Assembly: GCF_905175375.1 (NCBI RefSeq)
Contig: NZ_CAJIMS010000001.1
Coordinates: 1,674,001 to 1,738,000, forward strand
Reading direction: 5' to 3'
Length of the DNA stretch: 64,000 nt
Source of the DNA: Chryseobacterium aquaeductus
Lineage (GTDB): Bacteria; Bacteroidota; Bacteroidia; Flavobacteriales; Weeksellaceae
The translations under genes and the position numbers were made by a program. The notes below the pieces were generated by a model that was given only the letters and a program-made list of their open reading frames with translations, did not search any database and was not told where the DNA came from. The stretch's first letter is position 1, and each line of letters begins with the position of its first letter. Of this stretch, positions 18,797-20,210 are shown piece by piece.

Positions 18797-19690
18797 GCGG
18801 GATTATACAATTACAAGTACAACGGAAAGGAGCTTCAGGAGACCGGAATGTATGATTACGGCGCGAGATTCTATATGCCGGATATTGGGAGATGGGGTGT
18901 TGTGGATCCGCTGGCGGAGAAGTATCATGCTTTTAGTACGTACAATTATGTTTTAAATAATCCTATTAGCAATATTGACCCTGATGGAATGCAGGTATTC
19001 ACAGATTATAAGTTGTTACAAAATGGAGAAATTCAGAGGGTGAATCCATTAGATGGAAGTGAAAAGAGAAAGGATGATAGGCTATTTACAACAGACATTA
19101 CAGGAAAGGTCAGTTCAGATAGTGAAGTCTTTACAGTAGACAAAAATAAGGCAACTGATAATTCAATTATAGGACAGTTAGCTCAAACCAATGATGCTAA
19201 ATTAGGGGATTCTTTTGGGAAGTCTTCAAATCCATTTTTCTCTGAAGGGTTTACGAACAATTTGGAAACTGCATTTAATCTATATAATTTTTTAGATAAT
19301 AATACTAGTTCTGGTATAGAGTTTTCGCTTGCTAATTATTCTTCAAAAGGTAAGGACAACTTTCAAATAGCATCAATGCATGATGTAAACACCTCAAAAA
19401 TACATTCAAACAAATTTTCGCAAGATAATTTAGTTTGGTCAATCCATAATCATGATGGAAAATTAGGATTAATGTATAGAGAAATATCTAATCAATTTGA
19501 AACAGATATAAATACTATGTGGAGGATGATGAAAGAAAATGCTAGCAAAAAATTAGGTTATCCAAGTTTTTTTATAGTAAATGATAATAGTAGAATGATT
19601 GAAGTTAATTCTAAAGGAGCTAATACAAAATCAACGAAACCGTTTAATGTTCCGTTTTTAAAAACTTTAAATAGAGTCCATGGTAAATAA
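18797..19690 (+). pseudogene. Orphan RHS C-terminal tip cassette (unit A), JAB-toxin-like
   Basis: The frame is open from just after a TGA (18794). It encodes YNYKYNGKELQETG from 18806, then MYDYGARF, the GRWGVVDPLAEK core end and IDPDGM, followed by a ~230-residue tip. The first ATG is 18848 (280 residues), but there is no signal peptide or RHS shell, so it is probably silent unless recombined with the full gene. The tip start (DYKLLQNGEIQRV) matches the unit B expressed tip (DYKLLQNGQVELI). The metal-site region reads SIHNHDG rather than HIHSHPGG, so it is a relative with an altered motif. The ~120-bp core segment resembles 11514-11630 closely and could act as a homology arm. A lipoprotein gene overlaps its end by 11 bases. 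Confidence 0.75.
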
Positions 19691-20210
19691 TATTAAAAAA
19701 CTAGGATTTATTTTAATAATTATATTTTTATATTCTTGTTCTAAAGAAAAGATGATTCATAAGGAATCTGAAAATAATCAGACATTAAATGAAAAAATAT
19801 ATAATAAGATAAATTTTTTTATAGATTCATCTTCTTGCTCCAAAAACAAAGTTGTAGCAGTTAGATATCAAAGATATAATGGGAAGAAATTTATCCAGAT
19901 TTCTTCACAAAATGTTTTCATTACTGATTCTTTATTTATTCTTAAAGATTATAAAAGTCATATTATAGCATTTTATAATAAAGAATTTTTTGGAAAAACT
20001 ATTGATTTAAATATCAATGACAGCAAGAATACAATTAAAAAAAATGTTCAATGGGATTTATATAAAAATAATTATACTGGGACGGGAATTCCGTGTTTTG
20101 AAATGTATGAATTGTATAATAATAAACTAATTGAAGTGTCTAAAAATAGTTATTATTATAATAATCTTTTTGTTAATCCTCCTATGTTAAAGCCAGTTAA
20201 TCCTCATTAA
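19680..20210 (+). CDS. Lipoprotein, candidate immunity partner of the orphan tip (unit A)
   Basis: The 176-residue product has an N-terminal signal with lipobox LYSC (FILIIIFLYSC, Cys ~20), then a very AT-rich, Asn/Lys-rich sequence with no recognised family. The ATG overlaps the last codons of the tip by 11 bases, indicating that tip and lipoprotein travel and are expressed together. IS3 DNA begins 44 bases after the stop. Confidence 0.6.
   Translation: MVNNIKKLGFILIIIFLYSCSKEKMIHKESENNQTLNEKIYNKINFFIDSSSCSKNKVVAVRYQRYNGKKFIQISSQNVFITDSLFILKDYKSHIIAFYNKEFFGKTIDLNINDSKNTIKKNVQWDLYKNNYTGTGIPCFEMYELYNNKLIEVSKNSYYYNNLFVNPPMLKPVNPH

Follow-up and report, generated by a model that had tools for sequence, protein, structure and literature searches.

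Why do a primase gene and two tyrosine recombinase genes lie between a complete RHS gene and a spare RHS tip? The question is raised twice by a 64,000-nucleotide (nt) stretch of Chryseobacterium aquaeductus DNA (assembly GCF_905175375.1, contig NZ_CAJIMS010000001.1, positions 1,674,001-1,738,000 of the forward strand), which we call the window and in whose coordinates its features are given. We propose, with a probability of about 0.83, that in the first of the two arrangements, unit A, a 7.29-kb integrative mobile element sits inside the RHS core, and that the orphan tip downstream is the former tip of the gene, displaced by the insertion. If this is true, a weapon gene appears to gain a new toxic tip with the matching antidote, the old tip being left silent behind the element.

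Two RHS units with displaced tips

The features of unit A are as follows.

8886..12434, + strand: full RHS gene, open reading frame (ORF) of 1182 aa (DUF6443, E = 7e-35; Rhs_assc_core TIGR03696, E = 6e-17), composed of the DUF6443 shell (8886-11513), the core (11514-11627) and the expressed tip A (11628-12431)
11511..11530, + strand: putative left attachment site of element A, comprising nt -3 to 17 of the core, with the crossover at about 11520-11521
12469..12795, + strand: putative immunity gene of tip A, directly 3' of the tip, no family at curated cut-offs
12825..13262, - strand: small lipoprotein-like ORF of 145 aa from the ORF list, in element A
13259..13627, - strand: helix-turn-helix (HTH) regulator of element A (HTH_3, E = 5e-15)
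13754..16177, + strand: CHC2/Toprim DnaG-like primase (PRI) with an AAA-type C-terminal half (Pfam; TIGR01391 dnaG, E = 5e-31, under its cut-off)
16369..17172, + strand: tyrosine recombinase INT1, catalytic residues present (Phage_integrase, E = 8e-29)
17199..18083, + strand: tyrosine recombinase INT2, divergent partner (Phage_integrase, E = 4e-14)
18084..18805, + strand: right end of element A, its last part conserved across species, with an in-frame TGA at 18794-18796
18803..18822, + strand: putative right attachment site of element A, TTATACAATTACAAGTACAA
18806..19690, + strand: displaced (orphan) RHS core (18806-18919) and Toxin-JAB1 tip (Pfam, E = 6e-7)
19680..20210, + strand: immunity-type lipoprotein gene of orphan A, overlapping the end of the tip, Imm65-like by context only

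The orphan frame is open from 18797, directly after the TGA, through core and tip to 19690, and the ORF that overlaps its end has a lipobox-like start (LYSC, read by eye). The core peptides of the orphan and the full gene are identical at 38 of 38 residues, DNA 11511-11695 and 18803-18987 is 81.7% identical over 186 columns, and the two cores lie in the same orientation, 7292 bp apart from start to start. This bears out the preliminary description of the locus, which had reported an orphan frame behind a stop codon, with an RHS core, a tip and an overlapping lipoprotein gene, about 7.29 kb from a co-oriented core. The core repeats are not due to chance, because in the 3.49-Mb genome a degenerate 29-bp pattern of the core is matched 4 times on the forward strand and never on the reverse strand, and a control pattern is not matched at all. 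As judged from its reading frame, the orphan tip is silent in the sense of being cut off from the upstream coding frame. The locus has the organization of a polymorphic RHS toxin with an orphan cassette, namely a full gene with core, variable tip and immunity-type gene, followed downstream by an orphan core, tip and immunity gene. The toxin assignment comes from family matches only (Toxin-JAB1 for orphan A and for tip B of the second unit), with no family match at cut-off for tip A and orphan B; pairing of Tox-JAB-1 with Imm65 lipoproteins has been described (PMC3482391).

Unit B repeats the arrangement with other tips.

26458..29991, + strand: full RHS gene with the expressed JAB1 tip B (core at 29080)
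29077..29096, + strand: putative left attachment site of element B
29988..30527, + strand: putative immunity gene of tip B
30632..35453, + strand: backbone of element B, consisting of HTH (- strand), primase, INT1 and INT2
36144..36163, + strand: putative right attachment site of element B, TTGTACAATTACAAGTACAA, arms complementary at 6/6 positions
36147..37046, + strand: displaced RHS core and orphan tip B
37061..37450, + strand: putative immunity gene of orphan B

The cores of unit B, at 29080 and 36147, are 7067 bp apart and enclose a module as in unit A. Between the cores, both units contain a tip, an immunity-type gene, an HTH gene on the opposite strand, a DnaG-like primase, two tyrosine recombinases and a right end of about 700 bp, and both right ends lead into the same core sequence. 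The backbones do not differ at a single position over A 13628-18179 (4.55 kb), and the tips and immunity genes do differ, on which grounds we rejected a simple gene duplication. A whole-genome search revealed eight places with an RHS core and only two copies of INT2, both in the window; other INT2-like matches in the genome are at most 28% identical.

In the mechanism that we propose, element A would extend from the third core codon (about 11520) to the same point before the orphan tip (about 18812) and would carry, in this order, most of the core, the tip, the immunity gene, HTH, primase, INT1, INT2 and a stop-bearing right end. A circle with the right end joined to the core and tip would recombine with the corresponding short site of an rhs core in the chromosome, INT1 and INT2 presumably providing the catalysis and the primase perhaps copying the circle. 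Integration would join the tip of the element in frame to the resident shell, so that the weapon gene would be re-armed, not broken, and would push the old tip with its immunity gene downstream, behind the in-frame stop; excision would reverse integration and restore the old tip. By bringing a useful new 3' end plus an antidote gene, the element would be able to enter a gene and leave it functional, and the host might benefit from the new tip.

A constant crossover position within the core

The conserved right end stops at the core: a degenerate 41-bp motif yielded 27 matches in 17 of the 173 genomes of the genus, and a control yielded none (all collections surveyed contain one genome per species; individual genomes are denoted by G numbers). 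We compared 20 within-genome pairs of junctions, six of which were shell-fragment or other pairs and uninformative on right ends. Where the same tip follows different left flanks, the last mismatch was at core nt 4 or 6 in 5/5 pairs, with none at nt 7-60. The right-end/right-end pairs with different tips numbered nine, seven of them with identical left flanks; in all seven, the first mismatch appeared only after the crossover proposed here (nt 9, 9, 10, 15, 16, 33, or none within 60). A single crossover at core nt 7-8 satisfies all 12 informative pairs. This position falls in the middle of the 8-bp spacer of TTGTAC-AATTACAA-GTACAA, as found at 36144-36163. The junction is unmoved where the two cores are only 71% (G043) and 81% (G144) identical in gapped alignment; the ungapped values of 38% and 49% overstate the divergence because an inserted codon shifts the alignment. 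A three-way comparison of tandem arrays narrowed the shared sequence to 5 bp in each of two other clades, G074 (GGTGG, by script) and G283 (CTGAA, by eye; the tolerant value of the script is 56), and to 9 bp in G236, 35 bp in G406 and 38 bp in G207. An element on a Cytophagales plasmid begins at the equivalent core codon (YGFNGKE). Separate copies are therefore bordered by direct repeats at a constant position, as is typical of site-specific elements.

These junctions bear on the proposal that RecA-type homologous exchange between cores moves the tips and that the primase-recombinase block is a passenger which once landed nearby. Such exchange, proposed for enterobacteria as C-terminal displacement, has been described as a mechanism for rhs genes (PMC2935791, PMC3967940), the core repeats that it needs do exist (68-91% identical within arrays), and for one tip shared between species the breakpoint falls in the 3'-terminal part of the core (G042/G109, see below). 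Against it stand the 12 of 12 within-genome pairs that fit nt 7-8, the mere 5 bp of shared sequence in G074 and G283, and the right end of the module, which always adjoins a core in close relatives. With a breakpoint uniform over the core, three tandem arrays as seen would have p ~0.0016, a value that assumes independence and that every core position is usable. We consider this proposal improbable. The preliminary description had envisaged a homologous exchange that places the orphan tip on the expressed shell and excises the DNA between the cores. An exchange at the cores would indeed join the orphan to the shell and free the primase and recombinase genes on a circle of 7.29 kb; homologous exchange is not supported as the likely route of insertion, given a conserved right end that belongs to the module and a within-genome crossover that maps to core nt 7-8. 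Likewise, its term reserve tip is apt in that the tip is displaced and apparently cut off from translation, and overstates the case in that the orphan is better seen as a tip pushed aside by insertion.

Bracketed, tandem and minimal copies in relatives

Relatives of INT2 were found in 14 of the 173 genus genomes (22 matches, E <= 1e-40) and in 24 of 320 family genomes (40 matches, E <= 1e-35), own genome counted in both. We mapped the surroundings of relatives for shell, core, HTH, primase and recombinases, and called a module close if its INT2 was at least 55% identical, as holds for 24 of the 40 family-level matches. A core is present on the right of 23/23 testable close modules and on the left of 21/21, one of the latter being a module split by an insertion; untestable were one right side, on a contig ending first, and three left sides, on contigs or records beginning too late. 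These counts are taken from the close-relative mapping because second-in-tandem modules in the wider survey often matched the right end of the neighbour. Since cores bracket the module, we rejected a free-standing element that landed beside RHS genes. The order PRI-INT1-INT2 is constant wherever all three were detected.

Several genomes contain two or three elements in tandem, and in G074 and G236 the tandem copies are free of mismatches over 7.05 and 7.36 kb, respectively, and another tip comes after them. In G275 (L067/L068), the second tandem element has its INT1 interrupted at residue ~191 by ~36 kb of inserted DNA.

Reading frames distinguish the two kinds of core. At shell-side cores (14/14), the frame is open for at least 860 codons upstream and at least 247 downstream, into the tip. 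At right-end cores (33/33), an in-frame stop within 37 codons cuts the core off; in 27 of the 33, three sense codons separate this stop from the core, and in ten the first codon of the core is TAG. The set of 33 includes two G207 cores with a diverged right end and G009 28418 (classed as other, yet with the right end), four rows without this right end having been dropped. As an in-frame stop lies just upstream at all 33 sites, we dropped the idea that the orphan is an independently translated gene, as far as reading frames can tell. Downstream of the core, 24 of the 32 right-end frames that do not run off a contig stay open for 250 codons or more. Six of the 24 begin a further tandem element, and 18 of the 26 displaced tips are intact by the same measure, eight being not.

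Expressed and displaced tips that stand side by side in both units, and displaced frames that are mostly intact, would also be expected of a resident switch, in which the host keeps the recombinases to toggle two tips by programmed phase variation and no mobile element is involved. This seems unlikely given the patchy distribution (14/173 genus genomes), the tandem duplicates, the plasmid copies in other orders and a related element with Dnd-like defence cargo (see below); moreover, without re-integration, excision would cost the host its expressed tip together with the immunity gene.

Besides complete elements, there are mini-elements of the form shell-core-tip-right end-core in G042 (~1.9 kb), G086 (~1.6 kb), G109 (~1.7 kb) and G100 (~3.7 kb). 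Among the 11 recombinase-free right-end sites that were fetched, no primase, INT1 or INT2 was detected inside these four; a regular expression recovered the motif of the right end at nine of these sites (it missed G076 and G147), and a further recombinase-free site, G009:C27, at a contig edge, lies outside the fetched set. The array of G009 also includes a backbone-free copy (core-tip-immunity-right end). By their composition, the mini-elements look like non-autonomous forms. In G256 (L065/L066), core-tip cassettes follow one another at oriented positions 3596, 4988, 12646, 13702, 21360 and 22417, with no right end before cores 4988, 13702 and 22417, which gives the array an integron-like look.

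A probable catalytic recombinase and a divergent partner

The catalytic Arg of INT1 is present in 38/38 aligned rows, HxxR and the second His in 37/38, and the Tyr is conserved in at least 93%. In INT2, whose catalytic positions were assigned via alignment to INT1, neither the first Arg nor the HxxR His is present in any of the 40 rows; the second Arg, GH and Tyr are retained in 40/40. INT1 is thus likely to be a catalytic recombinase with INT2 as its divergent partner, and with INT1 the element has a recombinase of its own, as site-specific integrative elements do. The nearest solved relatives of INT1 by sequence are XerC-like proteins, XerA and the integron integrase IntI4; its score against TIGR02249 (integron integrase) is 98 bits, the cut-off being 265.

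The conserved residues also speak against an old dead insertion, with inactive recombinases and the orphan as debris. Such decay could be read from the 8 of 32 testable right-end frames that are short, and no circle was seen. However, the primase and recombinase ORFs are open in both units, the backbones are identical over 4.55 kb, and relatives have mismatch-free tandem copies. We consider a dead insertion improbable.

The same tips in different positions

Orphan tip B is found on full shells in G036 (92% identical), G116 and G054 (76-77%), accompanied by its immunity gene (91%, 58% and 55%, respectively). Conversely, G063 has tip B, which in the window belongs to the full gene, as a displaced orphan (78%), followed by an immunity look-alike (by eye). 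Orphan tip B also occurs in G031 (98%) and G081 (95%), in frames starting near a contig end. The closest relatives of orphan A (60-61%) have frames of ~405 codons and weaker ones (35-40%) have frames of 1166-1195 codons, so that, on these alignments, the match of orphan A to a full shell is only distant. Two expectations of the preliminary description are addressed by these data: the spare tip of unit B does occur on full shells in relatives (three genomes), and most displaced frames are not decayed (18/26 displaced tips are open for at least 250 codons).

The mini-elements of G042 and G109 share a tip-immunity block that is 99-100% identical over ~1.2 kb. The left breakpoint of the block is near core nt 95-108, so that its transfer went through homology in the 3'-terminal part of the core. 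Within arrays all informative pairs fit nt 7-8, and between species there is this one clear case at nt ~95-108. As far as alignments can tell, there are two layers: the element inserts, and homologous exchange reassorts the tips. The latter may explain why A and B share a backbone and differ in their tips.

A wider family, and observations against the proposed element

Of 395 genomes sampled from the whole phylum, 12 contain primase relatives (E <= 1e-60), own genome counted. Plasmids of Aureibacter and Aureispira contain an RHS gene, an immunity-type gene, HTH, primase, two recombinases and a short RHS gene, tandemly repeated. In other clades, flank similarity starts elsewhere in the core (YVLNNP in G283, NIDPLAEKY in G221, ~YYPFG in G654, G406, G383 and G395); in G236 there is a possible start at the IVAGLNHAMH motif of another large protein (E = 0.037, weak). 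We lean, with moderate confidence, towards a Bacteroidota-wide class of elements (HTH, DnaG-like primase, two tyrosine recombinases) that integrates inside polymorphic-toxin cores and brings a replacement tip with its immunity gene; together with the recombinase-less mini-elements, it would constitute an integron-like exchange of tips and supply the missing integrase-driven circle of rhs displacement in this phylum.

Loci L060 (G014) and L057 (G063) hold related larger elements with another right end in common, LINTYSHIEGLKKA-YKYKYNGKELQ, before the same RHS core. In G014, INT2 is followed by DndB/C/D/E/H-like genes, a phosphorothioation-type defence set.

Several observations weigh against the proposed integrative element, or limit its reach. 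In the wider survey of 57 modules, four abutted contig edges, and the remaining 53 included 11 without a protein match between their flanks: two of the 11 are cut by a contig end, one is split by an insertion, two were later resolved (G157; G236b weakly, E = 0.037) and six are unexplained. For the distant modules of G063, G014, G058, G375, G367 and G475, no match between their own flanks was demonstrated. Two right-end pairs of G009, with a second right-end variant, differ already at nt 3 and 6. To the left of three cores that start an element (G009 12962, G256 4988 and 13702) there is no shell and no right end, and cores of this kind are involved in two of the five pairs with the same tip (G009, G256). 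The breakpoint in the G042/G109 block, preceded by a core diverged up to nt ~95-108, is not at nt 7-8, and the second layer of exchange that it points to tells against a purely integrase-driven account. The left arms of shell-side sites are poorly palindromic, and the palindromes are partly dictated by the encoded peptide; matches between arms average 3.2/6 at 14 shell-side sites vs 4.6/6 at 27 right-end-class sites. Arm palindromy was rejected as a general site model on this difference, and our claim is limited to the crossover position because palindromy is weaker at shell-side sites. Neither a circle nor an empty/occupied pair of strains was seen in these collections of one genome per species, and scans of viral contigs with the primase and INT2 returned no relatives and no free copy. 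The recombinases of 14 phage records are only 20-26% identical.

Other RHS loci and neighbouring genes

A further RHS unit at 1398 kb of the genome has shell DNA 96% identical to that of unit A over 2815 bp and another tip, and is without the module. Element-free units keep a short 3' remnant of the element HTH gene after the immunity gene (L009 9640-9789, L010 11491-11550), followed in L009 by an RHS shell fragment; this could serve as downstream homology for cassette exchange. Upstream of each RHS unit (3072-8880 and 21242-26450; also L009 and L010) there are two further genes: the first has a type IX sorting domain in the window copy at 3072-4724, and the second encodes 954-1382 aa, with DUF5977 in both window copies. 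This suggests that the RHS unit and the two preceding genes form a conserved three-gene cluster. A 530-bp piece, 99.8% identical, lies 3' of the immunity gene of each orphan (20254-20783 and 37446-37975) and contains an ORF that we take to resemble an IS3-type transposase.

Comparison with known systems

The preliminary description had held a recombinase/primase module between an expressed gene and a spare tip to be undescribed in flavobacteria, and we likewise found no such system: full-text searches of an open-access library brought up no paper recognizable as an account of recombinase elements within toxin cores. In a description of a Bacteroidetes toxin class (PMC7073777), the terms recombinase, integrase, orphan, primase, recombination and mobile are absent. 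A survey of recombinases (PMC8138268) was also consulted.

Integrons comprise an IntI-type integrase, an attI site and folded attC cassettes. The element resembles them, and the GInts, in having a short site for a tyrosine recombinase, cargo and direct-repeat borders, and INT1 resembles XerA/XerC-type and integron integrases. By contrast, the site here is inside an effector gene, integration would re-arm that gene, and there are two recombinases and a primase. GInts, the circles of which have been demonstrated, are defined by ginABCD, three integrases plus a small helix-loop-helix protein (PMC5385486), a gene set that differs from the one found here.

Tyrosine recombinases beside competition genes are also known from the rAID arrays of Bacteroidales (PMC12247911), which like our elements belong to Bacteroidota, and from XerC/D next to polyimmunity loci (PMC3482391). 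Unlike the present elements, those arrays hold immunity genes, and insertion inside a toxin gene is not described in the parts of these papers available to us; an rAID is defined by a tyrosine recombinase with a co-oriented array of orphan immunity genes (PMC12247911), which is not the arrangement observed here. In the bee gut bacteria Snodgrassella and Gilliamella, integrases near rhs genes were suggested to have a role in tip transfer (Steele 2017, PMC5727410); in contrast to our case, no element borders, site or crossover are described in the consulted part of that study. In Vibrio cholerae, as here, a new effector-immunity pair displaces an older one and old immunity genes remain, although the breakpoints there are scattered and, in the portion of the report examined, there is no specific integration site (Kirchberger 2017, PMC5361080).

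The closest parallel is the displacement of Rhs C-terminal regions (Jackson 2009, PMC2935791; Koskiniemi 2014, PMC3967940). There, too, old tips persist as orphans downstream, a circle of core and tip was postulated, and an orphan can be re-expressed by recombination; the element described here may be the integrase of Jackson et al. (PMC2935791). Tip swapping and the downstream pile-up of orphans were therefore already known, the machinery being taken as general homologous recombination via a hypothetical circle. Unlike in those systems, as far as they are described in these sources, the element here encodes two tyrosine recombinases and a primase, its right end is conserved and its crossover point does not vary. 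Comparative evidence thus supports it well as a probable integrative element that re-arms RHS genes, and an element with its own recombinases, defined ends and a mapped crossover makes the question of how tips are swapped directly testable.
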